64,000 nucleotides of DNA, from the NCBI GenBank assembly GCA_026413225.1, contig CM048591.1:35867803-35931802 (forward strand), in the 5' to 3' direction. Below are positions 16,326 to 64,000 of this stretch, in pieces. The notes under the pieces were generated by a model. That model had not been told where the DNA came from and did not search any database. It saw only the letters and a list, made by a program, of their open reading frames with translations. The stretch comes from Otis tarda (Eukaryota; Chordata; Aves; Otidiformes; Otididae). The position numbers and the translations under genes are program-made. Position 1 is the stretch's first letter. Every line of letters starts with the position of its first letter.

Positions 16326-19300
16326 GTAAGTCTAAATGCAGAAGCATTTATTCGTTATTACCATTGATTTTTCCTTTCTAGGGCAGGAATTTCAAAGCTT
16401 TTGTCCCTGAACCACTCGAACAATTTTGAAAGACTTCTTGTTCAGCAAAACTGAGCTTTCTGTTTCTTATTTCCTTTTGTTTTCTAAGCAAGGCATACAT
16501 AATATATGGCACTCTTTATAATGCCAGTATTTCATTCAGAGATTGAGGCTGATGTCAGCTACAAATTAGTTTCAGTTAAACCATTGTACAGGATCTCTGA
16601 AAACGGAGAGTCCGTCTACAAGAGGCTCATTTCAATGGCAAAGGGTGCCTGTAAGTCTCAGCTCCTTGAGCGTCAGTCAAGAGGAGTAAGAGCTGTCTGC
16701 CGAAGGGGGCTGACAGTGGCACTTGGGATATTTATTCATAGATTCAGAGATCCTGTTGGGCAACCTCCACTGGCAAAGTGCCTTGGGTAGATGGGGCTAA
16801 CCACTCAATAGACTGCTTGGTGAGTCTGGCAGTGTTTCTGTGGAGGGGAAAAAAAAAGAAGCCACAGCTTCTCAGAAAGGATGAGTAGGGCCAGGTTTTT
16901 TCTAGCTTCGACTTTGAAAGGTCCTATCAGATTTTGTAACAGAATCTACTGCTAGGTGATTTGTAGGGTACATATCTGATATATAACGCTGATCTAGAGA
17001 AACAGCAGCTATTTATCTGTACATTTGTATACTGAGATGGGGCAGAAACCTTGGATGGAAAATAAAGGATAAGGGCATATCCTTTGTACTTCTTACAGTT
17101 GAAGTACTGCAGAGCTCATTTCTCCCCTTCCTGCCCAGCTTCTCGTTGAATATGCCACAAGTATAGGCACTGCTGGCAAAACTGGAGAGTGTTAAGAAAG
17201 ATTCAGAAAACTGATGCAAGGTTTGGAATGGAAAATAGGATGCTGCAACAGCCAGGGTGAGTCCCATGTAGTGCTTGTGGGCGGCATGGATTGGCAGCCC
17301 AGAAGATAAGAGGACTGGTCATCGTGAAGAGAATGGAGTAACATCATCAGTTGCCTCCACGCTCCCTGCCTGGCCTGATGTCCCTTGCCAAGTTTTCTAC
17401 AGGCAGTGGCCATGCTCCTCCTGCCTGTCCTCTGCCTTCTGTGCCCTCGCCCCCGCTATCCTCTGCAGCTTTCTAGCCCTTTCTGGGCACCCTACCAGGC
17501 AGTTCAGCTACTTATTCACCCAGGGCTGGCAAACCTCTTCTGCTTCTTTGTGTAGAGCACAGAGCAAGACCTGGCAGATGGCAGTGGCAACAGGAAACTG
17601 GAAAGGGGTCAGTCACAGCATGCTGCAACCAACCTATCTCAGGTGTTCTTTTTTTAAAATAGGAACTTGCCATTATGGTAAAGGAGTTCACTCTGTGGGA
17701 CTCTACCCTGCAGAGAAATGCAATGTATCTTCATAAATGCAGAGTGCAGGACAGGTTACAGGAATCCCCAAATCTGCCAAAACAGCGTTTTTCACTTAGA
17801 GCCCTGATTCTGAGAGAGAGAGTAGTTCCATATTTTGCTACATGCAGCTTAGGAAGCTTATGCGGAGTACTTCTTAAGAAAGCAAGAATTCCTCTTACAG
17901 TAGTAGAAATTAACGCTATTCAGTTCAAAGTATTTTAAATTCCTGGATAGAAAGTAATTCTTCATGGAGTGAGCCAGGAGGAATAAATGGTCAGTGCCTT
18001 CATACTGATAGGTTTCTTCAAATTGGAAACCGAGGGATACCTAGTGTTCCTTAGCCCACTTTTACCGGACCTGACTCTGGAAGAGAGAGACAGCCCATTT
18101 TATCATTGGTGGTAAGTTTGATTGACATCCACTTTCTCCTCATTTTTCCAGTTATTAGAGGAGGATTAAAGACAGCTAATTCTTCAAATAGTTTTCAATG
18201 ACCATTTGTCACAGTTTAGCCCCGCTCAGGACCAAACCATGCAGTCTCTCTCTCACCGCCCCCCACCCTCCAAGGGAATAGAGAGAGATAATATAAGAAA
18301 AAAAAGGCTTGAGGTTTGAGATAAGGACAGGGAGAGATCTTTAAAGTTACCATTATGGGCAAAACAGACTTGACTTGAGGAAAACTATTGGTTTATTATT
18401 AAAACCAAAGCAGGATAATGAGACAGAGAACAAGATAACCTCCCCCCACCCCTCCGTCTTCCTGGGCTTAACATTATCTCTACCTCCTTCCCCACCCCGA
18501 GCGGCACAGGGGGGAAGAGGGAATGGGGGTTATGGTCAGTTCATCGCTTGTCACTTTACACAGCTTCTTGCTCCTCAGGGGAAGAATTCCTCACATTCCT
18601 CCCCTGCTGCACAGGGGGGTCCCTCCCACGGGCTGCAGCCCTTCATGAATTGTTCCAGCGTGGATCATCTCTTTTATGGGGTGCAGTCCCTCCAGAACAA
18701 CTGCCCCAGCGTGGGCCCTCCACGGGCCACAGCCTCCTTTGGGCGTCTGCCTACCCCAGTGTGGGGTCCTCCACGGGCTGCAGGTGGATCTCTGCCCCTC
18801 CGTGGGCCTCCATGGGCTGCAGGGGCACAGCCGGCCTCACCATGGGCTGCACCATGGGCTGCAGGGGAATTCTGGCCAGGAGCCACATTACTCCTCCCCC
18901 TCCTTCTTCACTGACCTTGGCGTCTGCAGCCGTTCCTCTCACAAGAAATTCTTCACAACAGGCTGGCAGACACCTCTCAGGTTCTCTTCACATCTCATCT
19001 CCTTTCCACTTCTTGCAGCCGGGCTGGGCCGAGTCGGGCCCAGTCAGCTGCCTGGCGGGAGGCCAGAGGGTGAGGCCTGCAAGGCCCACAAGGTTCAGGC
19101 CTCCCCTCTCTGTCCCGGCTCAGCGTCCTCACATCTTCTTTTTCTTTTGTTTTTATTCTGTTTTCCTCCTTCTTAAATATATTATCACAGAGGCGTTATC
19201 AGGGAACATTCTGTTACCAATTGGCTCGGCCTTGGCCAGAAGTGGGTCTGCCCTAGGCCCAGCCGAGTACACTGGACAAAGGGGAAACTACTTGTAGCAA

Positions 19301-22300
19301 CTTCTTACAGAAGCTGCCACTGTAGCCCCCCTCACTAAATAAAACCAGAACACCATTCTGTCAAAAACTTTTCCCTATTGTGGACACTTCCCAGGGTGAT
19401 ATAAGTTATTAGCATAATACAATGAGTTGTATCAATTTCCGAACACATCCTGAGGTACTCTGTACTAATGTCCTCACTTGAGAATGGATATGCTATAAAC
19501 TGGAACAGTGGACTCATGCTTTGGTAGTTTTCTGGGTATTGTCACCATTCTGGTACCAAGGCTGTTCTCAGGGACGTGAAAATAAAATTATAAGAAGAGT
19601 TAAAAGAATTTATGAGAACAAAAAGAAGAGAAAAAAAATAATCTTCCATTTGTCTAACATCTTTTTTTTTTTTGTATTTGTGTAACTCTGTCCTTTAGAA
19701 AGTGGATGTTACCAGCAGGGCTGTTATGGAAATAATGGCAAAGACGATAGAGTATCTTCAGCCCAATCCAGGTAATGTAATTTCACAGTCTCACAGTACT
19801 TGCAGCACTTTTTGAAAATACTCTTTCTCCAATACATAGTCTGATAGATCTCATCCTCTCTAGTGCAGTTAAGATTAACATGAAATTGGGGAGGTTACCA
19901 TGAAGTAAAAGACAGAGATGAGTACAGGCTTCTGTATTAGGCTGTCAGGGGGAATGGAGGCTGGCTTTGGGAGGCTTTGTTTTCTATTTGTGTGTTCTTG
20001 CTTTAGATAAAGGGGCAGCATATGCCTGGAAACCAGGTGTATTTACTTAGAGGCATCTGAATGTCTGCACAGCGAGCATGGAGGGCTCCCAGGGAGCTGG
20101 AGATGGCTATGGACTCCCCATAGGGGGGAACCACTGCTCCAGCCAGGAGCAAGGCAGTCAGAGGGCACTGGGGCAGCAGCAGCCCTGGCCATCAAGCAGC
20201 TGCCTGGGTATGAGGACCAGCTGAAGCCAGGCAAACACCGAAGGTGTGGATCAGGATCAGGCATGGCGAGAGTGTCTGCATGAGACATCTCTTTATTCTA
20301 ACAGTCCCAGTCAGTCATGCTGTGTGAGGGAAGAGGACCAGGTTGTCCTTGCAGACCGTGGGAAGAAAGACAAAGTTCTGAAGCAACTTCCTCCAGAACA
20401 CAGGAAGAGATGTAACACCACCTTTCACCTGCTCCCGTAGCAATTTCCCATCCTTATTAGAGTTACTACGAAAGGGAGAGTGCTGAAGAGCTGTTGATGC
20501 TGAACTGGAGAAAAGGGCAGATAAATCGATGTAATCAGAGATTACTAAATTGAACCTTCAAAACAGAAATAAGTGATTGGTTTCCATGGGGAGATGAAAG
20601 AAAGGTTTTGTGATTGGGCTGATGGAGAGCCTATTGCCAAGGAATCTTCACAAGGAGGGGTGATCTGGAGCTGTTATAATCAAGAATTAAATTAAAGAAC
20701 TTGAAGATTTCCGTAGTAATCTAGGAACATAAGAGTTTTGATACTAGCATAAGTCAATGTCAGTTTCACCGATGGGGTCAATGGAGTTATGCTTGTGCAA
20801 AATTAGTGTGAAGGTAAAATGAAGCCCTCTGCCTACCATAAGAAGCTTAGAGTTTCATGGAAGTACAGACCAAATTAACTCATTCACTCTGAGGAATTTG
20901 TTCCCTAATAGGTGGAAACAAATTCAAACCAGTGCGGAATTCGAATGGTGTGGTATGATGAAGGGCTGTGGCTAGTATAGCTTAATTGGTGATGGTTTTA
21001 TGTTAGACCACAGAGGAAAGGAGGATAATTTGAAGATGCTGCCAGTAGATTGAAAAAAGGAGGAATAATATTTACAAGTTCAAGAACTGCCTGAGAGAAA
21101 ATAATGATGGCTAAAATGGTTTCTATGTCAACAGATGAAATACTGTTTATGACTTGAGTCCACAGCTTCATTGCTCATTGTCAACAAGCACTCTGCAGGA
21201 AAAGCAATAGAATTGACAAACATTATGGGGCTAGTGATAAAATTGTTAACTACTGTCAGGCTGCTGTTGTGCAACATCGTATAGACTGAGTAATAAGCTT
21301 TGGCTGTTTAGTGCTTCTCTGGCTGCCTTCCTGAGTGATTATGATTGCTGTGAATCATGAAAGAGGCTCACAGCAATGGTAGAGAGGAAGATTTCTGGAA
21401 GTAGCTAAGGGTGTGATTTCAGGCACCTCAGGCTGATGTTAAGTTTGCGGTGCTGCAGGAAAGAGCAGTTTCCACGCACTAGCTACACATCCCTTCATCT
21501 GCTTCTGGCGTGTGCAAGTAGAATCAGAAAATTAAAATTGTAATAGGCAGGAGGAAGATTTACTTTCTTGGCTATCAAATGAGATCATGTTATTCCTTCC
21601 ACAGCTAGGCAATGGTAGCAGATTGAGTAACAGGAAAGGAGGACTGACTTTTCAGTTGTCACCTGATCCTAGATGGTTTTATGCCAATTGCAAAAGGGCT
21701 TCCTATAGTGAGAAGAATTGCATGAAAAATTGCTTCTTTTTTCAATAAAATAAAAAAATTCCTCCTTAAAATTCTCCCTACAACTATATTACTGTTTACC
21801 TGGGTCACCAAAAATGCTGATTTTCAGTATTTCCTTTTTGCTTTTTCATTTTCATAAAAAATTAGAAACATTACATTGGGAAGTGGGGGGAAATTTATTG
21901 AAAAACAATTCTTTAACAGCAATATTTAACAGAAGATTTTCTTTAAAAATTTACCTGGGTTGGTAAGGAGACGAAGGTTTGGGATGTAGCACTCAGTCCT
22001 TGATAAGTAAGATGTGCCCTGAAAACATAAGTATGCTTGGATAACATAGTACTGCAGTGCTAGAGATCAGTTGGCTTCATCGTGTTCTGAAGGATCAATA
22101 TATGAAGTATCTAGCGTTGTTTTAACTTCACAAAACAGTTAATTAACTAATGCTGAAAGGAAGAATGAAGAGCGAAAGGGAAGGGGAAGGGCAGGGAAGG
22201 GAAGGGCAGGCAAGGGAAGGCAAGGGCAGGGAAGGGAAGAGGGTATTAAAGACAAGGGTGAATTTATTGTAAGAGGTGTTGGGCTGAAGATAGCGCGAAT

Positions 22301-44107: not shown

Positions 44108-47100
44108 CTTTTTTTTTTTTTTTCTTTTTTTTTCAGAGAGTTGAAACATCCTAGTTAGGACTTTGTGTAACAGTTATGGCTATAATAGTTGACAATATGA
44201 AGTACTTGAAGGATACTGAGGTATCTAATGGTGGAAGTGACAATACACAGCTTGCATAATTACACTGAATTAATTGCATAAGGAGAATTCCACAAATACC
44301 TTGGCTAGATTTCAAAGATGTAACAGGCATTCTGAGTGCATATGTCTAAGGTTTGGTTTCTCAAAGTGCCCATTGAGTTGCCACTTATCCAGTGGTGATT
44401 GCGGGTTTTGTTTGTAAAGTTCCTCAAGTGTCTTCATTTCTTACCCAGACGCACCAAAGCCTTGGCAAAACTCACCTGTGACTGTTTGCAGCTGGTGAGC
44501 TAGATAATCTGCCAATACTGAAAGCAGAACTCAGTCCAGTATGCAGTCATGTATTCTTAATTTATGTCAAAATCCGCTGGGTGATTAGATATTTAAAACC
44601 TATCAGCAAAAATTGTAGCACTAATTCTAGCTACGTAGTCCCAGTCAAGCATTTTCTATCCCCATCTGCCTGGACCTTCCAGAGATTAAAAGAACAAGAA
44701 GAAACCCAGAAACTCCTGTAGCAATGCAGAAAGTGTCTTATGTCTGAAGCTTCAGCCCATGTATGGGGTTGCATGATGAACAAGGTAACTTTAGAAGACA
44801 CAGAAAGGAAGCTTCAGAGCCACAACTATCCTCTCTTATTGCTGACTTTTCTGTCAGGTGGTGCTGGGGAAGGAATACTGCCTAAAATCATTAGGGAACA
44901 GCAGAGTACTCTGTAAGAAAAACAGGAAGGAATTTTATTTCTCTTCTCCTGTTCTTCTAGAGATAGGACTTCTGTTCCTGGGATTTCTCTGATTTTAGCC
45001 TTTAAGTGAAATGTAACCAGAGCTGCTTCTAAAACAAATACTGACATGAAGACAGTCATAAACAGAAAACCTTGCAAGCATACTTTACTTCTTCAGCATG
45101 AAAGAAGGAGATGGCCTCTGACAGTCCTTTTGCAGTAGGCTGAAATAGTTTGCTAGCAGCTCACAGTTAATGCAAATTTGAACAATCAGGAGAAGATATA
45201 GTATGATGATAGACATCATCACACATCAGCTGTGATGTCCAAAGGAAATTGCAGATGCCTCAGCTTCGTCAATCCTACAGCAATCTTCTGATCTAATGTT
45301 GTACCCAGTTCCTGTGCAATGAGTGATATAGAGGGAGGGGTAACGCTACAGCAGCTAATTGACTCTTGCAAGTCCTGTAAGCAGGTGCTTTAATGCTTGC
45401 TTTTCAAACAGCAGGATGAATGACAGATATCAAATAAATAGAAGGCAGCTGGACTGTTCATACCATCAATTTAATACTTCTAAGCAGGAGGATAAAAAGC
45501 CTGATATACCATATGAAATAACTTAGACTTATGACGTCTGCTACAAAAGAGCAGCAGCTGCTATGTTCAGCTGTGTATGAAGCTGAGATCATAGCTGTTT
45601 AAAATGAGGAAGCTTCCAGAAGCATGGGACATTACAGACCATTTAACCATGTCCTCAACACTCCTTCTCCCAGAAACTGCTCCTTGATTTCACTTTGGAG
45701 CATCATGAAGTTACTGTTTGCTTTGGCCTGGAAGTCTAGCAGAGTCTCATAGGGTTCCCAAAGTCACTGAGGTCACATCATACCTATTTCTAGATCTGTT
45801 TAAGATCCTAGGATGGGACTCAGCAAAGATCTGATTTCCAGTGCTGGCAGAGAATTGTTGCTAGAAAGTGGGCAGTGAATTTAATTTTAATTCTCCAACT
45901 GTATAATAGGGCTGATAATAATTCCATGTTTCACAGAGCTGTTGAGAATATATATTAATATCTCTAAAGCTCTCAGACTTTACACTGTAGACGCGAGGAA
46001 AAATCTGTTCAGTTTGCTCTGTACAATCTATTATATTAATCCAGCCAAATCCAAATTTCTGCTTTTACCAAGGCCTAAAGTTTTACTTTTGCTAGTTTAA
46101 GAATATTTACTAAGCATTAATACTCTAACCGTCAGCTGAGAGAGGAATTTAGATGAAGGTATTTTCCACTGAATACTGGGATGATATTTTGCCAGTAGGG
46201 GTATTAATGCTCTGCAGTTTCATAGGCAGATGTCTGCAGGTCACAAGCTCAGCGCTTCACTAGACTGTAACGTTAACTGTAGATGTGCTCCTCCACACCC
46301 TCATGTCAGAGTGCTATCAAGTAATAACACAAAGAGCATCAGTGGTTCTTGGTCTTTTCTTCCTCTCAGCCTGCAAAAGTTATAAATAATCTCATTTTCT
46401 AACACATTTTAAATTTCTTTATCTCTAAAGGAGGTTTGTGGAGTTCAAAAATTCCCTGTAACCCAAGAAAATCTCTCACTTCCTGCTGCTCTCTGCAATA
46501 TTGCAGGATGAAGAGGTATAAGGAAACAAGTCTGCTGACCTGGCTTGTAGCACTGCATGTAGCCTTGTAAAGGATACAAGGAGGCAAAACTGGAAGCACA
46601 GACAGGTGTTAAACTGTTCCTTCTGTGTGGGAGACTGCTTGCTGAACGTCAGCAGTCACCTGCTGCCACCTCTGAGCACGTATTTACAGTTTGTGCAAGA
46701 AGCTTCTTACTTGATGTTGGAGGTGAAGAGCTCCCTCTTGATAGCGTGCAACTATCAGTCTTGTTTCTAAACTTAACACAGGCCAGCAGCCCACTTTCGT
46801 CACAGCTCGTGCGAGGAACTAGGGCAGGGAAGGACTTTGCAACAGCAGGAATTTCACAGTCCCTGCTGAACTTGTAGGCTCTGGCGAGCTGTAGAAAACA
46901 TAACAGGGCATGCTTTGTTTCTATTTTCATACCCTGGAAAGCATTTTTTCAACTGATGATGCATAACATTGCAGCCTTGTTGCTGCAATATGAATGTGGT
47001 TTTCTCTACCATGCAGTCAGCAGCCACTGGAGAAGCCAGTCAATTTCTGTAAGCTGCGTACAGCGTATGCTGCCAACACCTTTCCAAGACGTGGGAGGGA

Positions 47101-47237
47101 CCCAAATCTGTTTTTAACAAGTCCAGCGTGTTTCAAATTAAATGCAGCTGGCAACCTTCTCTCAGAGTTTAGACCGTGGTTTCCTGTTGGGTTACAAATA
47201 GTTGGTTTTTGTTACTGTTCGGTGTTAATGCTGTGAG

Positions 47238-47252
47238 CCGGTAGAGGGCAGC
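47238..47252 (+). promoter_or_regulatory. Candidate CTCF-binding motif
   Basis: CCGGTAGAGGGCAGC fits the vertebrate CTCF core CCASYAGRKGGCRSY at 14 of 15 positions (G for A at the third). It lies in a small GC-richer patch within AT-rich DNA. Motif match only; occupancy is unknown. Confidence 0.5.
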
Positions 47253-49715
47253 CCGGCATTTAATTTTGGTCCCGTTGACCTCTCAATAGATACGTTTTCT
47301 TCCTAAAATTTGAAGTTTTAAAGGATATTGTTAACAAATACAAAGATTCCTACAGAAAATGGACATTTGTCAAAAATCTGCTTTTTCAATACCACCCAAA
47401 CCTGAATATTAAAATTTCAAAAACCTCAACCTAAAAGCCCAAGCTGTGGAAATTGCTGAAGCTCAGCGTACCTCCTTTCATCTATCATATTTTCATAATG
47501 TAGGCAATTCTTTTTTTCATGCGGATCTTCAGAGTCGGTTAATAAAACATACCTAAGGCTTGAAAGGTCCAGTAAAACAGCTGAGTAGCACCCACATACT
47601 CACATCACCCATCTGTCCTGAATAAAGGTATTTTTAGCTGTCTCCTAGTAACAGATCCTTCCAGCACAAAGTTTTATCATTTCAGTCTGACACACAATGC
47701 TTATATGTAGCTTTTTCTCTCCCCTCCCCCATATAATAATAGAATTGCAGATGCTCACTTTCAGAAAATATAAACTAAAAAAAAAATCAGAATAGCTTCT
47801 GAAATTGTTCATTCAAGCACAAACTATTCACCATGAAATACATCTGCCAGTCCTTCGCTGGAAGGAGAGTTATGCTTAATTTGGGCCAAACTGTCTCAAA
47901 GAATACAAATGTTTTGACAGTTCACACCATGTTTCATCTGAAGTTCCCCAGATACTTCCTGTGTATTAACTGAGGTTTCTTCTTGTAGCAAAATCTTTTT
48001 ATTACACCCAGTTTAGATATGGGCCCTTGAGGCATAAAGTGATTAACACCCACTTTTTCCAAAGTGTGTCTTGAAGTAGTTGTCCCAGTGCCTGGTTGCT
48101 CTTCACTGTAATATTAGGGCAATTTCAGATGTCTTCTGTTTTGTTTCTCTGAAAATGTATTAGGAGTAAGAAGAGGTGTGGGCACTAATAATGTCTAAGA
48201 AGACAGTAAGAGATAAGTCTGAGAATAAGGATCAAAAAATGTTTTCAGCAGTAAAGATGGGTTCTCCAGAGACATTCCAAAAGTTACTCATATTGGTAAA
48301 CAACTAAGATGAAAGTGCCTGTTAAAAGTGCTGAAACAAGTACTCTTCACGCAAAATCTTAAAACAATCCTTAAAAAACCAGATTATAAGAATATCAACC
48401 TCATGCATATGTGCAAAAGGAGACAGTGTGTGAGGTGAGAAGATAACAACCTGAGGCATTGACTTGGTATAGGCAGGGCAGAGAGGACTTAGGATGTCAA
48501 AGGTATAGGAGCAATAATGGCAAATCATTGCCATGTGTGCCCTGCGTGGCATCACCAGAGAGCTGGGCTGATGTCATCGGCAATGCCAGTGCTTTGTAAA
48601 ATGTAGTTTTGCCCAGCGGCACACAGAGACACCTTTTCCTGAGACTTTCACCCTCCCTAGCTATCATTTTGACCATTTAGAATGAGTTTAAAAGAAAACA
48701 AAAGAGTCTGACAAAGGAAACTAAGTCTTTTTTTTGCCTCATTGGAATGGAAAAATAAGTAAAGAATGCAAGGATGCAGATAGAGCTCCATTGATACTGT
48801 GGTTAGAGCTCCATGGATACAGGCTTATGCTCCCACCTGTACACTACTGTTGTAGGAAAGACTTACAAGCTGTGTAAGGCAGGCACAACATTATCAGTGC
48901 ATTCCTTTCAAGTATCTTGAATGTGCAAAGTAGAAATGTTTATTAATGAGCTCTGGAAAAATCCCTTCTAGCCACCAATCTTTGCTGTCTTTATTCCTGG
49001 GTCCTTCCAAAGCATCATTAGTAACAGCATTTGCTTCAGCTAGTACTTTGTTCCTACAGATTTAAGAGTATTCCTGACAGTTAAACCCATCAGGATTACA
49101 AAACACAGGGTTGCCAAGGACTAGGCAGTCCCAACTCCGAATTATTTGAATATTCTGTGCTGTGATAGAATTCTAAAATTTCTGGACAGTACAGACTGTC
49201 TTTTGATGGCTGAAAGCAAATCTTTTAACTGTATGTTTCAACTTCCATTCCTTTCCAAATTTTTTTTCTCCAAAATCTTTTTTTGTTTGCTGCGGGAATA
49301 TCACAGCCTTTGCCTGATCATAAGTAAGTAACTAAGCGTAATTATCCATGGCTGACAGGCAAGCAAGCAAGAACCGAGTGGTGTGAGCCATGGCATGGAC
49401 CATGGATTAAACAAGAGCCAGGAACAGAACACCTGAAATTGCTGGAAAGGCCTACTGTGGTATCATCATGTATCAATATGAGACAGGATCTAGCTGTAAC
49501 TCTAGCAACAAAATTTGGGAATGCGGGTATGTGGACATCTGGCACCATCTAGAAGCAGAGGACCTGATATGCAACTGTTAAAACATCGCCTGTCAAGACC
49601 TCAGGCAGAGCCTGCCACAGAGCAGCTGGAGAGAGTGTCAATTTTTCTGCAGCCTCAACTTTCTGGCATGTGAATGGTGGCAGAATCATGCACATAACTG
49701 TGTTAACTCTGTGTC

Positions 49716-49759
49716 TGCGTGCACACGTGCATGTGCGTGCACACGTGTGTGTGTGTGCA
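49716..49759. repeat. Alternating purine-pyrimidine tract (TG/CA/CG)
   Basis: Forty-four bases alternate strictly between purine and pyrimidine, ending in a GTGTGTGTGT run. It includes GCACACGTGC and GCACACGTGT, which are near-palindromic. Such tracts can adopt Z-DNA. Confidence 0.85.
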
Positions 49760-52700
49760 ATCCTTTACCTGACACAGCCTATCCCACTTTTTTTTGGTCC
49801 ACTTAATAACTCATCCATGTCATTTTATCTGGTGTTCCTTTTCCACCACAACATTATATTATTAACAAAGAATAGAAGGTATCTTGCTTCAAAGTATTTT
49901 CTTCCTTTTTTGTGAGGGACTACAACTTTCTCTTACTTTAAAATCTTTTCTGTAAATCTTTTCTCAGCATAAGCAATATTTTTTTTTTTGCTAAGTTCTT
50001 GCTTTTTATCCAATATAGAAAGTGAAAAGGTTTAATGTTCTGGTCTCAGTGTTTAAGTGATACAATCTGAAGTAAAATGACTGCTATTTTCTCTCTCTTA
50101 TACCTTTTATATGCCGTGTTTTACACAGGTTTCTGTAGTAAAGAAAGCATGTGAAACAAAAAAAAAAAAAGAAAAAATACAATAATATCGATAGCTTTGA
50201 AAAAATATTTAAAACTTTTACATTCTTTAGGTATTCTACTCTGTGTTGGTATTCTAAGAAAAATGCCACTGGAAACAATTTGTAATTAAAAAGTTTTTTT
50301 TTTTTTCTGACAAAAATAAGTTTTGGCAAACAATTTTTGATGAGCTCTTCAGTATCTCTGTAATTCAGAGATATCACCTAGATAAAAGAAGATTAATTAG
50401 GCCACGACTGAGACATACTGGGTGTTATATAAGATGGTATCTATAGCTGCTTTGATATGCAAAATTACTAGACATAGTAATATATAGCACCATATCTTTG
50501 CCTCTATACTAGTTTTCTACTCTACAGATTGAAGCAACGGCCTCTTATTTTATATTTTTTCATGTTTATATGGAGGATAACTTCTGTTTATGTAGAGGAT
50601 GCACACCTCCTTGTTAAGGAGTTTGTCCTGAAGGAGATAATTTCGATAAAGATAACAGCAACTTATTAATCTCTGTTATCAAGATTATTCTTCTTACTTT
50701 CATTTTATTTCTGTCATCACATCTCTCTGGTGTATTCACTGTAAACCCTGAGGATCTACTTATGTTCCAGCAGAGACTGAAAATAGTTACTCCCCTTCTG
50801 GCTATGTATCAGAGTAGCCTCTGCAAGCCTTTTGAGTTTGGCCTTTATTCTCATCTACTTAACATCCTGTAAAACTTCATGGAGCTTTTAAAAATTTTTG
50901 TATTGGATGCTCAGACAACAGGAATGTAGCTGAAAAACACTTTTTAAAATCCCCTATATTTGTAATTCCTGCCTGCGCTAAGCAGTGCACTGCCATAGGC
51001 TGTATGCATCTCCCCTGTCTTTCAAGTATTTTGGTCCTATGCCTAGGCAATTAGTTACTTGACTTTATTTCTACAGCATTTAGTATAGAGAGAGGAAAAA
51101 ATTCTCCCTATGTTTTTCTGACACTGTGCTTTGCATGGTAGAAGTTCTACAGTAATTTTGCAAATCAATCAACAGCAGCTGTAGACACAATCCTACACAA
51201 TACCCAGTATATCCTACTCTTGGCCTAAGTAGATTTTCTGTATGTTTTCTATAATACTACATTATTCAGCTTTGCTTTTAAAGATCTTCAGTACTAAGCT
51301 TTGTAATGACAATCCAGACTATATGGACAGCCTTCAGATGCTGCTGCGCATGCACTCTTAGAGAGAAAACAAGTCACAGGTGGAGTGTCTTGCATTAGCA
51401 ATGTTTAGGAACAGCTGTGCAGTTGGTATCCTTGGGGTTAGCACTCCTGCAAACTTGAAGCAGCTAGTAAGGGTGTCTGCCCACAGAGGGAGACAGAAAA
51501 GGATGCCAAAGGCTAGGAGTCTGGTGAATAACTCTGGTGATAGGAGAGGATAACCAGAAATTCCTGGCTAGTTGGTATCAAGCAGGATGCTATCCAAGCT
51601 CCCTGCTCAGCTTGACAAAAAGGAAATACAAGAATGAAGAAACTTCCGACTGCTCTTCTCTCTGAGTAATAAGAGGAAAAGCACTGGGATACGTTCTTCT
51701 CTTCCCATTAGGTCTGAAGACATTTTCTTGTGTGAGCATCTCATAGTTTCTGCTTTTATTATTTGCAAGGAGGCTACACCTTCCCACAATCACCCAAAGC
51801 GGTGATTACTAGTCAAAATATTTTGTGTACGCTTCTGTGTGGCTATGCTTAACATAGTTTCTGACATCTTGAAAATGACTAGAGCATAGATAACCACACT
51901 GATAAGATATCCCGGGTGATTTTACTTTGTAAAATTTTATCTGTAAAAAAGAGATGGCTACATTTTCTGACCTGCTTTTCTCATGTTACAGCTGCATAAA
52001 TTCAGAAATCTTTCCTAATAATTCTGCGTATATGACCTGACATTTAGAGGAATTAATATTGGCAACCTATCGTTATGGTTGTTCTTCAAGAAGTTATCAA
52101 AATTCCATTCCTCCTACCTGCTTAAGCTATCAGAAAAGTCTGAAGATCTGTGAGATTTTTATTTTCCACCTTTTAACTCCTATGTTCTTTCTTCATCTCT
52201 ACAATCTGTTGGTGCATGAACAGAGCTGAGGAGTTTGCCCCATCCAAAACTGGTTTTCATTCTGGGCTGCTGTAAGAGGTTGATAAACACAGATAATAAA
52301 AGTCAGTGTCAGGTGACAACACAGAATCATAGAATGGTATCAGTACTGAGATATGGGCATCAAAACAAAGGCCACAGACTCTTACACAATACGATGTGAT
52401 GAGATGTAGAATTGGTGTCAGGTGCAATACCCTCATTATCCATTAAAAACCAGAAATATGGGAAAATATTTGCTAGTTGTTTGAAGGCTAGGGAAAAACC
52501 CTGCCAAGGCACAATTCTTGTTTAGCTTAATAAGAAACAGAGATAACTTAATTTTCGTAGAAAAATATATTTATTGGTATAAAGAGGATAAAATAGAGAA
52601 TTACTGGGTCTACTAAAGCTCATTGGCTCTTGGCCAAAATAAGAAGGAAGGAGATGCACCCACAGTCTTTTAGTGATTGGGTCCTTCCAAAATGCAGAGC

Positions 52701-55700
52701 ATAACAAGGCATAGTTTATAGATGTAGTTACTATGTGGCAATTCGGTGGCTTGAATAAATTTGTCTATGTGTTTAATAGCCCTGATCAGTCTCAAAGACA
52801 AGAAGTTGATAGTGAAGACACCAAGGGAATTGCAGGGTAGAGGAAGAAATGAACATGCCGTCAAAGAAGAGGTACGTAGCAGGAAGGTAGAGCAACATCG
52901 CAGTAATGACTGTCCCTTAATTAAATGAACAGCACTGATGGTGTTAACAAGAATTTTTGTCTGGAATATGTGAAGAATATTTTAAGTGATACAATATTCA
53001 AGGCTTCCTCTGTAAATTTCTCTCGTCATAAAAGGATGCTGAATGGGTCACTATCCCTGACCGTCAACAAGTAAGACCAACAGTGTAGCCTCAGTTGAAT
53101 AAGTCAATAGGCCCTGAAAACTTCATATTCATTCAAATATTTTACCTCTCTGGTATGCTGTAAAAAAAAAACAGATAAATACCATCATCTTTATAGTATC
53201 TAGTCTTTAACGGCAATGAAGTCTAGAGACAATATATTATATGGAAGGAACTCACCATGGAACTTACAAAAATGTGACAATATTTAATGTATTAATGTAT
53301 ATTTTAATTCCAGGTCAAAAAAGTGTCAGAAGAAGTAGGCATGTAGTGGGGTTTTTAATTGCGTAGTTTCTCAGTGTGATTTAGTACGACACAATTGCCT
53401 ATGATCCGCAGTGTGTACTCGAGTGCTTCAAACAAGGGAAGAGCTTTGGAGAATGACTGAGAATGTTTAAACTACATTTTCTTATATCTATGGTTCACAG
53501 TAATGATGTAACTAACATTCATTATCTGAGAGAACCTTGTGGTGATTGAAATACATTAAAAATTGAAAAATAAAAGCTAACTTTCAAATAAGATAAACGA
53601 GAAATATTTGTATTTAGGCATTACTTTTCTTTGGAAATTTACAACCAGGTCTTCCTCACTCATATTTGGCATTTTTCAGTGTTCTTCAAAGCTGGAGATT
53701 CACACTCATGTATTTTTAAAAAGGAATATAACAAAAGGATCTGTCTAACATGGACAGCTATGTAAATAATTTCATTTGGCATTATAAAATCAAATATTTC
53801 AGCATTTCACATCCATAATCCCTGTACTGACAATTCTCCTGACTTTATCACTTTTAGTTTAGTGGTATATGTATGTTTCTATAGTACATGAACAGCAAGG
53901 CAGTTTATATTCATGATAGGCGATTTTAGTTTTTAATGGATGCTTCAGCCCCAGCTAGACCTGGAGAACGTTCTACTGTATGTGGGTACTTGTAACTGCA
54001 TGCTAGAACTGCACAGTGTAATAGAAGTGTTATCACATTTAAAATCTCTGCTTAACTGACAGATAAGTGCTTTTTCTTTTTTGTTTTCTGTTATGGAAAA
54101 CATTTGTGATGTCAAGCATTATTAGCAAACCTCTGGATTCTCTGTGCATTTTCTTATTACAAAAGAAGCTGCATTGTCCTAGTTCTTTTTTTTTTTATGT
54201 AACTAGGGAAAGAAATAAATTCCTTGTATAATAAAAAAAATAATAATAATAATTGAGTAAACTTTGAAAGATGTCAAACAACTTATTCAGATAGTGTAAG
54301 CAGGTAAAAGTCAATCACTTAAGTCTCATATGGGCTTTTAGCTAGAGATACATAAGACAAGCTGTTAGATGACAAGAGAAAATCTTCTAATAAATCATCT
54401 GTGGACTCTTTTTCATGCTTAACTAGGAAGGCTTTGTCTTAATTCCAGCTCTTCAAAAACTCTGAGCAATTGGCACTAGACCAAGACAGCAGGAAATGGA
54501 TACCTGCAAGTACCTCTAATGTAATGAGAAAGGGTTGCATACCATCCAGGCAAACTGAGAAGAATCTTGGTGATGAAGAGGGAAATGCTGTTTGCATTTG
54601 GAATTGTTCAATATGTTGCTTCATTTTTTCATTTGTTCTCAGAAAGCACCTATTATGAAGTTCTGTTTACTTGATCATTAATACATTGAACTTAGTGCTT
54701 CTCTTCCAAGTGTCTCAAAAGTGGCTTATGAAAAGGTAAATTTGAGTCATAAAGGTTGAAGGTGGAGAGCCACTGGTAGACCTGAGGAGGAAAATAATGT
54801 CCAGAATCTTTTGTCTGATTTAATGGCTGCACCAAACTCTCTGCTAGAGCCTATATTACAGTATCTGGCACCTAATTATTCAAACTTTCTTTATTGTCTA
54901 TCTCTTTGAAAGACTTTTCAAGTTTCCTATGTATTCTATGCATCTTAAAATCAGAATTATTCTTTAACTGTATGGATAGTAAACAGTAAAAATCCAAACT
55001 TTGTGGTATTTTTATGCTTTAAGTTTCTTTTAAAGTAAAATCAAGGTATTCCTTATCTTAATGATTCTAGTACAGTTTGCTGCTGCAAAGTACTGAAAGT
55101 TGCCTTTCTATTTGGCCCAATTATTTGATAATTTATGAGGCAGGAGATTTGTGATTTGTACTTAGATTTGACATGATTCACTCTGTGCACCTGAGCAAAA
55201 CGTGTACTCTCTGCATATTTCAGTAGCACTTGTTAATCAAATATAATTAATATTAATTGTAACTGAACACTAAAATACTAACTCAAATACTGTTACAATA
55301 GTATTTCTGACCATCTCAGGAGAAGTCCTATGATATTATTTGAACCAAGAAAAAATGATCAATAAATTCAAATTCTTTTAATATGAATTTTGAAAAACTT
55401 AGGAGCAGGTTTTTATGTTTAAAATAAGATAATTCCTAGGAGATCAGGAGTGAAGTTTTGGATATGTGAGCACATCATATTCCAAAAGGAGCTTGAAAAG
55501 AGCCTGAATTACTGTTTGTTTGCAGTTCAGCTTTGCTGTATTACTATGTGCTTTGAGTCCTGCTAGTTGCTATGGAGGCTTATTTCCTTGCCAAGGAAAG
55601 ACGACTCTTCTCCTCCCTCCCACTCTTCCTCCCTCCCTTGCCCCACTCAGTGAGCATTTAAAAGATCGACTGCTGGGCATTGTCATCTTTTTTTCTGAAG

Positions 55701-58700
55701 CATTGGACTGAAAATAATGTAAATATATATAAAGTATGATTACTGACAGTAATATTTATCTGGTATCTGACTATGGTGACCAATTAATATGCTCAGGATT
55801 TAACCAACTACTGGGTTTGGGATAAAGCAGGGGTCCCTGCTAGATCAGGAAGCATGAGATTCGTGAGACCTTCTGTCCTTTCTACTCACTTTCTATGTTT
55901 CTTTAAAGTTGTGGATTTTCTTCATTTGGCTTTATCTTTTCTGTAGTCTGTTGAGAAATGCTGTGGGTTCTATGATGACACACAGAACAGAAATCCTAGA
56001 CAGTTTTCTAAGCCGAGCCTTTTTTACAATCCTTTTTTCATCACAGGAATAGGACTTGGCTATCCCTCTGATGCTCTCCAATCTTATCTAAAAGAGATCT
56101 TTTATTGTCTTACTGACTTGCTGTAACCACAGAGTTTAGGGTTTTATCTAAGATTATCATTAAATCCTCAGTTACTCATCTTAAATTCCCAGTAAAAGTG
56201 TTGATTAATTTTGATTGTTATAATAGCTTTGGAACAGAACTTTTGTTTAGCAATAGAAAGCACTGTATCTTATTACCAGGCCTGTAAGATTTGAGTCTTT
56301 CATTTGACATGAAGACTTTATTCCTACTGCTCTCTTGAAAGTTTCCTGTGATTCATTTTAATAGCATGTATTCCTCTTGTAAAGTAAATGGCTGCAGAAA
56401 TGAGAGACATTCACTCCCCTACCATTTTTCTCCTTCCTGTGTCTGCCATAAAGCAAAGCTAGGTAGAACTGTAGGCCAATTTAATGGCTAGTTACAGCAT
56501 GGTAACCATCTGTTTTACCTACTGCTTCACTGGGCAAACGAGTGGTGATCCCTGCCAGAGTAGACACCTGCTGTCCTCTTTGATCATCATTACTGATGAT
56601 CTGGATTTCACTTTTCTAACTAAAGTTTCAGAGCACTACATGCAAGTGATGTCCCATTTCCTTTTCAGGGTGGATATCATCCAGTCTCTTTGTGCTGACT
56701 GACTGAAAATCCTTGGAAGGTGGGTCATTGCTCTTTGTCGTAGTTCAGCCCTGATCAGGACCAGACTGATTGCAGGACTGCAATTTCTTTTACTCACCTT
56801 CACTCACACCAAAAATCCAGTCTGTATAAGAAGTCTGTGTTCATACAGAACTCTGTAGTGTTATTTTAAAATAAAATTCACAAATGTCTGAGGAAAGATG
56901 TATAAAAGTGGGGAGGGCAGTAATGCATTTAGGATCCGATTTCAAATTGCTGGTCAAGAATTGATCTCTGTGTACTTAGCCTGATGGTAGACAGAAAATA
57001 AAAATTGGTAGAGTGAAAATAAGAATTAAATTATATTAATGGCTCATTACATGGCATTGTTTTAGCTCTCTTGACCAGTGCAGTCAAAAAGCAAAGTTCC
57101 TTATAAGTATTTCTTGCAATATCTTTAAATATCTCCAGCTTTATTTAAAAAGCTGTAACATGTAGACATGATTAGATATGTGAGAAACCTTTTAAGTATG
57201 TTTCTTGCTCTCATAGAAGTTAAAAATACTTATAAGATTTCCAAATGCTTTCTGGAGTCTCAAGAAAAAAAAATGGAGACAGTTAAAAAGGGCACTTACA
57301 ATAACTTAACTCTAATGATTTTCAAGAACCTTCTACTTCTTAATGACAGTTGTAACTGTAATCTTCGTGGTGTTAGAAGTGCACTTTGATACAAGTGTCT
57401 CTGAAAAGTCATGAAAGGCAAAAATACATCTGAAAGAAAAGGAAATTCTACTTCCCCAAATTCTCCACTAAGAGAAAAATTCTGTGTTTCAAAGGTGCTT
57501 TTGTTATCCTGCTGCTGTTTTAGCCTTTTGGGTGAAGAACTCTTTAAAAACACAGGTGCTCCAGCCTTTTAACTGCAGCTGACTAGTCTTTGCAATCCTG
57601 TCTCCTCCGTAGAGGTGTAATTCAGTTCCCTGCAGAGCAGTAGATAAAAGTGCAGTTTAACTTCTATTTCTGCTAGGCATGCTACTTCTGAAACCCAGCT
57701 TCTGGCTGAGGTGAGGCACTTGTACAATGTGAGCAACACTTAAGGAAAGAGGACAGGGCCCCTGCAGCCCTGGGGAATACCAAGCATCTTCCAGATACCA
57801 GAAGAGATACCAGAGAAACAGCAACTACTAGTATCAGCAGATACTGAGTCCCTGTTTTGTGGCAAAAGCTCAACTTTTTCAGTCACTTTTCTGGCCAGGT
57901 ACTTAGGTGAACTCTCTTAACTGTGTGCATCTACAGGTACCACATTTATTATAGTGGGGATCAGACTTTGTACATCTCTGGCTCATAATTGTTAACTCTC
58001 TGAAAAACTGCTGTCAGGTGCTTTTTGTCTAAGTATTTCTATCTGACATAACAGATATTAAATAATTAAAATAACTATCTTTCAAAGCAACAGCATTTGA
58101 AGAAGATAACTCATCTCTCTGTGGTATAAAATGAATTAATCTGTGTGATGGCAAACAAGGAAATAAGGATGTGTTATTTACTTACATTTCTATTCAAACA
58201 AAAAAAAACCTTGCAAGAGAAAATATTCTGATGAATACCAAAGATCTTTAAGATTTCTAAATGACCTATGAAAAATGTTAAGAATTCTAACTGATATGTG
58301 AGAAACAATGCTATAAAGAAGTGAGCGGTTCAATAGATGGTGCTTTGTGCTTACCAAGCAAAGTAATACTATATGCAAACAAAACCAATAAAAAGCATTT
58401 AGTTGCCCCTTAAAAGTCCAGCACTTCTTTGTAAAGTAAGAGGTGGAACTTATGGACACATAATGCATGTACATTCCACGGGACTAGTAGAGTGTACCCA
58501 GTCAAAATTTTACCTAAGTGAATATGTGAATAAGTTCTAAATAAGAAAATTTAAAAGTAATTAATCCAGTTTCTTAACATGGTGAAGCATCTCTTAATAT
58601 ATATTTGAGAAATTTTTTTTTTATTTTTAAAAAGCTCGGTCATTTTAGTGGCTCAGAAACATCTAAAAGGCATAGATTGTAACTGGGCCAGAGCTACAAG

Positions 58701-61583
58701 CTAAGGTCCAAATCCAGCTATCTTTAAAACTCATATATGATCAGATCCAAAGTTTTGGTTCAGTTCATTATGAGACATCTGCAAAATTTGGACTCTGATG
58801 CAGTAACTTCCTCAAAGTTTGCTGTGTCCAGATGTCTGGTGGGGAATGTTGCTCACTTGGGCCATTCCATCTGTTTGGTTTTTGTCTTACTTTTCTTAAA
58901 TGTTCCTACATTTTTATTTTAATTTTATATCTGACATAGATCTTTTGAGACAGTAAATTTTATGCTGACTGTATTTGAAACACTGAAATCCCTTTAATCC
59001 TGTTGGTTTTGTTTTTGTTTTTTTTTTTATGCAATAGAAAGAGAAGATAAGCATGATACTATACAGAAACTAATCTACACTAATTCATTGTGGGATTGTA
59101 CTGCTGCCCACTGTCTTGAATTCAGTTTTGGAGTGATCCAGTGTATCACTTCAGGGGCTGGAAATCTTCAAGATATTGCTGCTGTCTTGTAAGACTAGAT
59201 AATGAAGACCACACAGTTTGTAATACACTGGTAGATCTAGCATTTCATTTCTTATTAGAAAGTTTTTGCTCCTCCTTTTGGAATTGCTTAACTCCAACAT
59301 GTCAGCTCCAGTCCTCATTTGCTTCTGATTTGTGACTTCCTTTACACATGATGATCATTTCAATGAGTTGAAAAGTGCCATTGTTCTTGAATGACTCTAT
59401 CTTCTCTGAACTGTTCATGGAAATAAACCTGGAAGATACAGTAGCTCTTTATGATTTAAGCTAGTGATATCACCTTAAAGATAGCAGACCACACTTCAAG
59501 AAACTTTGTTTTGCTTTCTGATGAAATTAAGCCCAAAGGCCAAAACCAGGGATGGACTTCCAAGTCAACTTACCTGATTTAGAAAACAAGAACACTGTGA
59601 GGGCAAGTACCTTTCACCAAAAATAGTGAATATTCTACTGACTCTGTATTGTAAGCTGTGCAGTGTGCAAACAAAGCCTTCATCTAGGAGGGGCTGTATT
59701 TGAAAACAATTTGTTCTGTGGCATCTAGACAAAAAGAGAAAATGAATTCTCTGCCTCATAAATATACTTCTGTTCTGCAGAAGTGTACTGCAGGTGGTGA
59801 CCATCCAGAGGCAAAGTTGAGAGCACCTCTCAGCAGAGAGCTGGAAGATATGACACTTCTGCATTCTCTCCCTGCTAGAAAGCCATGGCCTGTAAAGTGG
59901 TACGTGTTGGGGCGGGAAGGGCAGGGCCATTCTTTCTACGTCTCCCGTGCCCTACGATCAGTGTTCACTTGGAGCACACTGCCTTCAGTCATTATGACTT
60001 CATTAACAGGGGACAGTTTCCACATGTGAAGCAAGGAGGAGCAGAGCTTTCTAAGTCACAGGGATGTTGACAAAGCTGAGCCTGAGCTGCACAGGAACAG
60101 TGCACAGACAAATGTTTGGCATCAGAATTACACTTGGGCTCCAGCAGTTTAGCTGCTCAAGTCCAGTGAGGCTCCACAGCCAAAATCACAATGCTCTGAC
60201 TTCTTACTTTATAGAGACCAGTTTTATATTAAGCATCAATTTCTGTTCGGTTTAACCTACTTCACGGTGCATCAGGAGGAACTACTTGCAACACCCTGCA
60301 AAGGTGTAAATATTTACTTACAAAGACAGCAGGAGATCTGTGTTTTTATTCGAAAAGGAATGGCAAAATTACTGTATCAGGAGCTGAGCAGGACTTCCAG
60401 GTTCTGCAACTCAGGATAGTCTGAAAGTACGTGTACTGGCTAAACTCCTACTGAGCTGTCTAATGACAAGACTTTTAAAAGGAGGGCTCAGGGACTATTT
60501 TGTGTGCCATCTTTACTGGCAATGGAATATTATTTTGTTTCCTAAGTAGCCTTATTGATCTCTGAGGGAATACTTATATGTTTTAAACCATAATTTACCA
60601 TTCAATAAGAGCAAAATCAGATCACAAAGCAGAGCTACCTTTACAATCTCGGGTGGGCCAAGAAAGTGGGCCAAGGAATTGCTAGCCTTTTTTAGAGCTC
60701 TGCTCATCTAATCCATCTCAACAAGAAGGGCTCAGTCTCTGGCATTCAGCAACAGTGTCAGGGAGCGTACAGAGTGTACTTTCAGCACCAGAGGAGAAGT
60801 AGGAGGATCCTCTTTTGCGTTCTTTATGGTTCCTCTCTAAAGAGTGCCTCTAGTGCATCTGGCAGTCTCCATTCAGCTACATGTAGGGGCAGAAGCATGT
60901 TGTACTTCTTCACATACTTTTTCCTGGCAACCTGCTCAATAAGAATTTTTGTACTCCTTTTAGAACATAAGCAAGATCAAAGGTGACATTTTGCCTATTT
61001 CTTAAATTAACTTTAAGTCTTGTAATAATAAATGTTGAACATTTTGCAGAACAATCAGATATGCATAAGTTATTGCTATCAAAAGAGTATCCTTCCTTTT
61101 CCTGAAACACGGGACTTAACACACAAAGAAAGACGGAGAATTGCTTTGGGTGGTACCATTGAGTATTGCTGGGAGTACTGGAGTCAGATGGTAATAAAGA
61201 GAAATCAGCATAGGCTGAGCAATCAGAAAAAGTTCTTAATGAGCTAGCATCCCAAGAGGCTTAGGGAAAACCCTGTCATATGGAATGCTTAACATTTCAT
61301 GTTTAATGTTAGACTGCAAAATGCATTGAACGAGGGAATAATCCTGCTCTGGCAGAGGAAGGTACTTATAATGCAACTAATAATTTCAGGGCCAAATTCT
61401 CTGCTAGCATAAATAAGCCAAGCTCTGCTGAAGTCAAAGGAGACCCACCCTTTCATGCCAACAAAGGATATAGTCTTCCCTGCTACTCTGAATGTAGCAC
61501 AGTTTTGAATGGGGATCATTAATCCCCATGAAGCAGAGGCCTGTGTGAGTACTTGGCTTTCCAGGAGGGTTTCTTTTTTCTTT

Positions 61584-61585
<2 letters not shown>

Positions 61586-61614
<29 letters not shown>
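61586..61614. repeat. Uninterrupted T29 run in a pyrimidine tract
   Basis: Twenty-nine consecutive T within a longer polypyrimidine stretch (about 61570-61618). On the minus strand it would read poly(A), but I see no retrocopied gene or SINE body next to it. Confidence 0.85.
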
Positions 61615-62859
61615 CCCCTGCTATGATAAAAGCCTGAATGAGAAAAAGCAAACTATGGCATTCTTTATTTAACCCTCAATGCGTGGTGTTTGTTGACCAT
61701 CATAGCAGTCTTTGTCCTAGCTTTGTCTCAGGAGGCAATGTGATTTTTTCAAACCAGGTACTGCCAAAGAGAATTGCGTTGAACTAAATCTTTAATTTTT
61801 TAATGCATATGCTTGACGAAACTAAGGGCATAAAAACAAGGAACCAGCATTCTAACTGCATGCACATTACTAAACTGCTTTTGGGGTTTTTTTTGTGGTC
61901 CTGTCCCTTGCTACTTATTATTTCGTTTAAGCAGCTAAACTCTCTTCTCTCTCTCTTTCTTCCCTCTGCTTCCACCAGCTTCATTCCAATAAATAATAGG
62001 CTCAAATGTGGGCTTAAGATGTATCCTGGGAGATCATCTAACCTCGCACTTTCAGACCTCCAAGTTTCACATGCCTAGCAGCAATTCACAATTTATTTGT
62101 TCTTCTTGCTAGCTCCTTTGCAAGGCTTGAGGGAATTATCAAGACTTACTAGCAATTGCAGTGGAGAACGTTTCAGCCAGGAATGAAAGTTGCTGTCATC
62201 AGGTAAACAAAATCTGATGAGATTTAGTCAGAAATAAAAATTAAGCATGCATAAACCTGCTGGACTGTGACCCCCATCTATTCACAACACTCATAGGAAT
62301 TTGGTTGAGTAGGCCCGGGCAGAACGTTGCTTGAAACCCCAAAGGGAAAGAGCTAAGTGTGATTCGGTGCATTATGCAGGCAGAGGCAGAACACGGTTTT
62401 TACAAGCATATTAGAATATCTTTAACTCCAGGTTTGGGATCTGAATGGGCTTGACTCTTCTGTTTGTTTCCCTTCAGCCTGGGTGGGATCACTGCCTTTA
62501 AGAATTTAAGAGGAATCTTGCCACCAACACCAGTAGAAATACATGGAAGCACCCTGTATAAATAGCATCACAGTTGAGCTGGTCTGATCCTTATCCTGGC
62601 TAATTGTATGCCTATGCCACTTTGACATGACCGGTATTTATTTATTAGTTATAGGAAAAAGCATTCTGCTGGCTTTTCAGCAGGTTTAAGAAAAAAACTT
62701 TTGCTTTTAGGGAGTGTGGGGAAGAAAGACAAAACCATAGTTCTTTCTGTCTATCTTATATGCCAAAATGATGCAATGGAGCCAAAATGGCAATATATTG
62801 AAAGAATGCTTTGCTGTAAAGCACTTTGCATCCATTCAACCTATCCAGAACTCACCCAG

Positions 62860-63102
62860 CCTGCTAAACTAAAGCTTCCTTTCTGATTTGGGCTTGAGGT
62901 TTGGTAGACTGTAGGTTTAACTGCAAATTGGATAAGGGTGGAAACACCTTATCCAGTGGTCTCTCTTCAGTAGGCACTGTCATGATGTGTAGATTTGGAC
63001 GGAGATGTGCCTGTGAAAGCCTTGCAGGGAACAGGAGTCTGAAGGACACACTTTTACTACTTGGGTTTTTAATGAATCTACAAACCTTTACCAGCATGTG
63101 CA
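62860..63102 (-). pseudogene. Possible decayed continuation of the fossil viral element
   Basis: Downstream of the small ORF the minus strand keeps short basic and hydrophobic stretches in shifting frames, for example CRFIKNPSSK in one and LQGFHRHISVQ in another. That is what a worn C-terminal half of the small gene would look like. No motif is decisive, so the element's inner boundary cannot be set. Confidence 0.3.
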
Positions 63103-63258
63103 TCACTTGGGGGTTAATGCAATGCTCTCCTTCAACGCATTCCGGGCAATTTCAGAAATGGCCTTTATCAGGTCACCAGAAGGAGTGCAAGAATATTGCT
63201 TTCCTCTGCCAGGGGGAGGACCAATCAACAGCTCCAAGAGGGACAGACACTGGGACAT
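63103..63258 (-). pseudogene. Short ORF of a Polinton/adintovirus-like element, following the ATPase
   Basis: An ATG at 63258-63256 opens a 51-codon frame ending in TGA at 63103-63105. It starts 57 nt after the ATPase stop, on the same strand. Such tight head-to-tail packing is unlike the surrounding vertebrate DNA. The translation has a short hydrophobic start (LSLLELL), a Gly/Pro stretch and then an amphipathic helix with SGDLIKAISEIARNALK and IALTP. I associate this helix-plus-LTP pattern with a short conserved protein of Polinton-like elements. That is from memory, and its function (possibly a minor virion protein) is uncertain. The frame probably ends early through mutation, since related pattern continues below 63103 in other frames. 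Confidence 0.5.
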
Positions 63259-63315
63259 TGTGTTCCTAAGTCTGCACTGATAACAACACAAGATGTCAGT
63301 CCAGGTCCTTTCTAT

Positions 63316-63956
63316 TTACTGTTGAACACCAGTTTTTTCTGTTTTCAATGAGTGGAGAGTCAGCTGCTCTGGCTGGAAAAGACCAGTTCTTAGCCTAAAA
63401 GCCTCTGGGGTAAAAGCACTTAAATAGGCAACCAGATACCTATGCAGTACCTACATAACTTTTTCAAATGCTTCTAAAAAAAACCAGGGCCTTGCAAGAT
63501 ATATCTGGCTAGGGATGCAACCTGGAGGTTGTCTCTGGGATTCTCAAATAACACCATATATTTTGTGTTGAGAGTGACTGTGCAGCTCTTTCTACCCTGG
63601 CAAATATCCTTCTGGACGCTGAGATTCCTGTAACGCAGATACTTAGTAAAAGCTTTCTCAGTTTCGTTGCTCTCACAAGCAGGGTTCATCAAATCATTGA
63701 TCACAACTGCATTTACTTTATTAGGGGAAAATAAATGGTTATCATTATAACTTTCAGATGAGTCCTCCACAAGTTTGATAAAAAAATATTTACAGAGTAG
63801 TTCCTGCCAACAACAGTCAGATCACACAATATTCTCATGCATAACAGAGAGGTAGTGGTTGGTGTTCCCCAAAATACTTTTTGCAAAATAGACCTTCCCA
63901 CAGTTGTTAGGCTGTGCCAGAATAGCAAAAGAGGGGTGCTTCCAGCACATGCCCAT
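63316..63956 (-). pseudogene. Fossil A32/FtsK-HerA-type packaging ATPase of a Polinton/Maverick-like element
   Basis: In living elements this ATPase drives genome packaging into the capsid. On the minus strand one frame runs from an ATG near 63956 (or 63950) past KHPSFAIL to a P-loop-like AQPNNCGKV (63891-63917), where the usual glycines are lost but Gly-Lys remain. ENIV and WQEL follow, then the Walker-B-like AVVINDLM (63687-63710; the first acid is Asn), RNLSV, CQGRKS and the signature MVLFENPRDNLQ with LAR (about 63500-63557). After a T8 run (+ strand A 63476-63483) the similarity shifts to another frame: LEAFEK, YLVAYLS, TPEAFRLRTGLF, ending at TAA 63316-63318. Breaks are TGA 63822-63824, the frame change at T8 and TAG 63451-63453. 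Its length of about 213 codons suits the family. The order of motifs across 600 bp makes chance unlikely. A host AAA protein is less likely because of the NPRD and TPE...RLR motifs. Confidence 0.85.
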
Positions 63957-64000
63957 GATCAAAAACTGTAGGGAAGGCTTTTAAAATTTTAATTGGTACT
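63957..64000. other. Right edge, probable upstream flank of the ATPase fossil
   Basis: On the minus strand this is AT-rich, with an in-frame TAA at 63981-63983 before the first ATG. It could be the promoter or intergenic gap of the element. The rest of the element would lie beyond the window. Confidence 0.3.

Follow-up and report, generated by a model that had tools for sequence, protein, structure and literature searches.

A dead Maverick/Polinton DNA-packaging ATPase gene downstream of SH3GL2 in the bird Otis tarda

Introduction

Fossils of Maverick/Polinton elements have been described in several amniote lineages, including birds. Guizard et al. (2016) reported that chicken chromosomes 2 and Z both carry interrupted Polinton PolB frames, and that the regions concerned are conserved in turkey (PMC4992247). 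Barreat and Katzourakis (2021) listed Mavericks for many bird groups, and the bird copies described in that account are defective members of the same element type as the one presented here (PMC8097293). The same work describes T. carolina as carrying an intact Maverick and gives the module order of intact vertebrate Mavericks as ppolb-atp-pm-pz, all on one strand (PMC8097293). The human Maverick integrations on chromosomes 7 and 8 are described as highly degraded and orthologous; like the copy studied here they are degraded Maverick fossils in an amniote lineage, although the host class and the integration sites differ (PMC9683012).

Here, we analyse a stretch of 64,000 nucleotides of Otis tarda DNA (the window), which was located at C40:35867803-35931802 of its own genome (C40, 84.19 Mb; genome, 1.198 Gb). 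At its right-hand end lies what we interpret, with a probability of about 0.97, as the ATPase gene that once belonged to an ancient Maverick/Polinton, an adintovirus-type endogenous DNA virus that inserted in an ancestral bird germ line and is now dead. The kind of fossil is already known, and the insertion itself is probably known too. In a literature search of papers exclusive of their supplementary files, no paper was found that links a Polinton with SH3GL2, the neighbouring host gene, or Mavericks with the bird Z chromosome as an endogenous virus; it is thus possible that the precise site and the ATPase in it have not been described before.

A decayed packaging ATPase gene

Protein searches that started from the best piece of the remnant and went on with a small alignment retained 32 of 438 candidates at E values of up to 1. 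These included two very close decayed relatives, P0005 (77 aa, 84% identity) and P0006 (161 aa, 75% identity), both predicted proteins, as well as a group of seemingly intact proteins, 219-242 residues long, among which one is named as the FtsK of Terrapene box turtle adintovirus (P0007). An ATPase profile (A2) built from 12 intact relatives among the 32 proteins was searched against all 2179 stop-to-stop frames of 20 aa or longer in the whole window. Strong matches were found only on the minus strand at 63825-63980 (38.7 bits, profile positions 2-44), 63477-63821 (128.3 bits, 49-162) and 63319-63450 (25.1 bits, 182-218). With a short piece at 63454-63543 (minus strand; 5.8 bits, 158-175), they make up four collinear pieces that together span profile positions 2-218. 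In 20 first-order Markov shuffles of the window, the best score per shuffle was 4.4-10.0 bits, which rules out a chance origin of the match. As the shuffles reach 10.0 bits, the 5.8-bit piece is not significant by itself; it lies within the tblastn match to residues 160-222.

In tblastn searches, each of the 12 intact proteins gave the same two blocks in the window. The closest named relative, P0007, is the same protein along its whole length, 58% identical across residues 1-168 and 46% identical across residues 160-222. Its residue 1 aligns at 63956, and the C-terminal frame closes with a stop at 63316-63318. Together, the profile and tblastn results confirm that a packaging-ATPase gene of the Maverick/Polinton (adintovirus) type, dead but almost complete, occupies 63316-63956 (minus strand). 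Split between two reading frames, it corresponds to the intact protein from residue 1 to about residue 222.

An earlier note on this DNA, written from the letters alone, had given exactly these limits, and the motifs that it described are all present where it placed them. The first open piece (63825-63980) contains the start and a worn P-loop, which reads AQPNNCGKV versus AGPSNCGKS in intact relatives. The second (63477-63821) contains the Walker-B-like strand (VVINDLMN versus IIIDDLMN in intact relatives) and the NPRD motif (LFENPRD versus LFKNPRD). Past a frame change near 63505, the reading continues with WFFLEAFEKVM and then YLVAYLSAFTPEAFRLRTGLF; the short piece at 63454-63543 reads QIYLARPWFFLEAFEKVM, and the C-terminal piece at 63319-63450 reads TPEAFRLRTGLF. 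The note's attribution to a Polinton/Maverick packaging ATPase is borne out as well: both halves match the family in profile and tblastn searches, and a remnant of a family B DNA polymerase adjoins (see below). The finding that would have refuted it, according to the note, included a better match to a host P-loop protein with introns; no intron structure was seen.

The possibility that the pieces derive from a host P-loop ATPase or its processed pseudogene gains some plausibility from the P-loop being common to many host proteins. Yet the whole-length match goes to adintovirus FtsK-type proteins, the ATPase remnant has a polymerase remnant of viral type as its neighbour, and neither Pfam nor solved-structure searches with the best piece yielded a host ATPase, so we regard a host origin as extremely improbable. 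A host ATPase with introns was rejected on the grounds that the matches are of the adintovirus FtsK type and that tblastn revealed no intron structure. The Pfam family Pox_A32 (PF04665) exceeded its cut-off in three of nine intact relatives (P0009, P0012 and P0020), with the others below it or unlisted, and in none of the four window pieces. Pfam assigned these four pieces to no ATPase family and gave one weak Haem_bd match below the cut-off; solved structures compared with the best ATPase piece gave two chance-level matches only, and scans of viral contigs gave no relative. Profile, tblastn and tree (see below) agree on an FtsK/A32-like packaging ATPase of a vertebrate Maverick/Polinton element.

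The damage to the gene is extensive and exceeds what the earlier note had listed, which did not include the in-frame stops and the gaps. The P-loop has lost its first Gly and its last Ser/Thr, so that the window copy has no working Walker A motif, as expected of a dead copy. Two stops interrupt the frame, a TGA at 63822-63824 between the P-loop and the rest of the protein and a TAG at 63451-63453 in the C-terminal part. Two gaps of four codons each, relative to the intact relatives, were detected by tblastn within the core (63477-63821), one after CWQ and the other after RNLS. In all of these respects the window copy differs from the turtle protein, which is intact. A P-loop ATPase so damaged cannot make a working enzyme, and the lesions in P-loop, stops, frame and core rule out a working gene.

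A remnant without enzymatic activity might nevertheless have been taken over by the bird and be translated in part. A 115-codon open stretch survives, and P0005 and P0006 have been predicted as proteins, both of which would suit such exaptation. Against this, breaks affect the P-loop, a core strand and the reading frame; in the closely related P0006, P0021 and P0024, the frame is lost elsewhere, and P0006 and P0021 have a Trp codon in place of the window TGA. As frames break at different places and the stop is not shared, the pattern is that of free decay, and exaptation appears highly unlikely. Judged from its sequence, the ATPase copy gives no sign of a present function.

The polymerase remnant and other parts of the element

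In the 10 kb next to the window on its right (L007), six family B DNA polymerase motifs occur in order, on the same strand as the ATPase and upstream of it, from C40:35935438 down to 35933345. They read CDMEC, AHNAKGYDGY, DYCQQDV, YDLASLYPF, NSLWG and YHDTDS, and correspond to what we take to be the defining patterns of exo I (DxE), exo II (NxxxYD), exo III (YxxxD), A (DxxSLYP), B-like (NSLWG) and C (YxDTDS). Across six frames of the window and 11 fetched stretches (169.5 kb), with patterns that were written after seeing the sequence, the exo III, A, B and C patterns were confined to L007 (2, 1, 2 and 1 times, respectively); the exo I and exo II patterns are less specific, with 16 and 5 occurrences in all. 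Two of the seven polymerase pieces matched PF03175 (DNA_pol_B_2) in the right order, at profile positions 235-310 and 366-403, with 14.7 and 11.6 bits, below the 25.8 cut-off. The six ordered motifs and the two collinear sub-cut-off matches point to a family B DNA polymerase, putatively a protein-primed one, an identity that we propose largely from the motifs.

Several other searches were silent. PF03175 gave nothing over the whole of the bird's own genome or in any of the control genomes, and Pfam searches of eight and then seven flank pieces gave nothing relevant beyond the two sub-threshold matches. PHROGs returned nothing relevant for six polymerase pieces, solved structures gave no match to the one piece compared with them, and the flanks fetched for four other ATPase copies contained nothing that matched the polymerase pieces.

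The locus thus has polB followed by atp on one strand, matching the first two of the published modules. What follows in the element, where pm would lie, starts within 63113-63315 (minus strand). DNA homology to a separate copy on C1 is unbroken from 63926 to 63113, through atp and about 200 bases beyond (69.4% identity, 876 columns), and for this reason the stretch beyond the ATPase is probably present; its identity as pm is suggested by its position. Translated matches in 63113-63315 (E 1.6e-6 to 1.4e-5) fall in antisense frames, so that no coding frame is confirmed there. A protein search with the frame at this position found no database relative, with no candidate sharing three words. Window frames of 25 aa or longer, from 44 kb onward, matched the flanks of the four other ATPase copies only within the atp-to-pm stretch. 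In comparisons with other copies of the element rather than with reference proteins, neither pz nor the genes typical of the opposite strand in vertebrate Mavericks, namely a retroviral-type integrase, the major and minor capsid proteins and a protease, were identified, and no terminal repeats or target-site duplication of the element were identified either. For terminal repeats, no convincing pair was found in window positions 46000-64000, which held only simple repeats and weak pairs.

Between polB and atp lies a 1.17-kb repeat (L007 146-1312) that starts TGTTCTGG, ends ...ACA and has GCCTC on both sides; it is a solo LTR with a 5-bp duplication. As it sits nested between the two genes, the Maverick was there first. 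Three LTR copies that we compared differ by K2P distances of 0.15-0.22. The rate in birds is about 2e-9 per site per year, which would place this divergence at roughly 40-55 million years; as subfamily divergence before insertion may inflate this figure, it is not used as a date. A second LTR-like copy, 82% identical and with AATGG on both sides, lies at window positions 18213-19352, between SH3GL2 exon matches, and is therefore intronic.

Chromosomal setting

The earlier note had placed the remnant beside SH3GL2, and it does lie there. A tblastn search with an SH3GL2 probe peptide gave eight matches to SH3GL2 coding exons on the plus strand, from 16254 to 38301, and the ATPase remnant lies 25 kb past the SH3GL2 stop codon on the opposite strand. 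The window contains eight matches, including two overlapping pairs, to a CR1-type 3' repeat of the avian type (up to 2 mismatches; 0.09 expected), in keeping with a bird genome. Further to the right, at L008 1-800 (G000:C40:35941803-35942602), a long simple repeat adjoins a repeat with further copies in other fetched stretches; the latter resembles a CR1 reverse-transcriptase end.

SH3GL2 is on the Z chromosome in chicken (PMC3096585), and C40 is therefore most likely the Z chromosome. Because of this linkage, and because PolB remnants have been reported on chicken and turkey Z, the insertion in the window is probably the same as the Z remnant of Guizard et al. Those remnants are likewise decayed Polinton sequences with PolB on an avian Z; the relevant part of that report names no ATPase and gives no coordinates, so that the identity of the loci is not proved (PMC4992247).

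Related copies and the history of the insertion

With the intact turtle protein as query, the bird's own genome gave 17 matches with E up to 0.001 at 13 loci, which are spread over C1, C2, C3, C6, C21 and C40; the copy beside SH3GL2 scores highest. All 13 loci match individually by tblastn (weakest E 8e-8), and one of them (L028) fails the profile at E 0.1. The earlier note had treated Mavericks as scarce in birds, so that a recognisable copy would be a marker. The copy is indeed recognisable; the argument from rarity is weaker, given these 13 loci and the bird Maverick fossils described in published accounts (PMC4992247, PMC8097293).

Two of the other copies have features of their own. L010 108-966 (G000:C1:85062608-85063466) is an independent second Maverick ATPase remnant with 69% DNA identity that is without the gaps of the SH3GL2-side copy. 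At L004 1303-2040 (minus strand; G000:C3, around 59281154-59281357), a stop-free frame of 246 codons that has no Pfam match runs across another Maverick ATPase fragment, and may be due to chance or be a reused exon.

To place the window copy, a tree of 24 rows was made, comprising the 115-aa piece of the window, 15 relatives that are intact or nearly so, six other fossil or partial rows and two outgroups. P0006 and P0021 were trimmed to their in-frame heads, and the tree leaves out the window's other three pieces, P0017, P0024, P0027, P0030-P0032 and P0034-P0036. The window groups with P0005, P0006, P0021 and P0023 (98/96), inside a larger group that holds P0008 and turtle P0007, in a tree with several weak forks, six rows that are under half filled and two outgroups that are long branches that meet. 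The 4-codon gaps are common to this clade wherever they can be read, the first in P0006 and P0021 and the second in P0005 and P0023. In the bird's own genome, the first gap can be read at five other loci, four of which are without it and one of which (L033) has a different, 2-codon gap. The second can be read at 11 other loci, with nine lacking it and two (L021 and L033) having other or unclear changes. P0017 is without both gaps, and P0026 and P0028 are without the second, the only one that they cover. As the shared gaps are absent where covered, these three proteins represent another kind of fossil or partial copy, perhaps from other insertions.

The five-member clade probably represents a single Z insertion seen in several birds, as its shared lesions suggest; the database proteins themselves bear no species names or flanks. 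This lack of context also leaves room for a different history, in which the clade stems from a defective lineage that copied itself, making the database fossils paralogues and not orthologues of the locus. That copies did multiply is clear from the 13 ATPase-remnant loci in one genome. However, no other copy in this genome shows the two 4-codon gaps, and with the second of them part of a core strand is gone, a loss that an active copy should presumably not tolerate. We therefore consider paralogy the less probable history, albeit one with a sizeable minority chance. For the stronger proposition, that the Z copy downstream of SH3GL2 goes back to one insertion, which was inherited throughout a deep part of the bird tree and is marked by the two 4-codon losses, we put the chances at about even.

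Implications

Members of the A32/FtsK-HerA family pump the viral genome into the capsid, driven by ATP. By analogy, the ATPase would have used ATP in the same way in the living element. Under the reading preferred here, a Maverick/Polinton would have inserted in an ancestral bird germ line 25 kb beyond the stop codon of SH3GL2, on a chromosome that is most likely the present Z. The copy has since been disabled by the ruin of its P-loop, the loss of two 4-codon stretches of the core, two stops and a frame change, and a solo LTR has inserted itself between the ATPase gene and the polymerase gene's end. The ATPase copy is presumably now decaying as neutral DNA.

The cause of the disappearance of Mavericks from birds and mammals is described as an open question (PMC9683012). 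The 13 loci in one bird genome suggest that queries with intact tetrapod ATPases can uncover more copies than the small numbers that have been reported for most vertebrates. Its clear synteny, nested LTR and shared lesions allow a copy such as this one to be followed from one species to the next, which would give a minimum age for one germ-line entry in bird ancestors. If descent from a single insertion holds, the copy beside SH3GL2, as a virus fossil with synteny that can be dated, would set limits on when Mavericks entered bird germ lines, in a genome that keeps 13 remnant loci.
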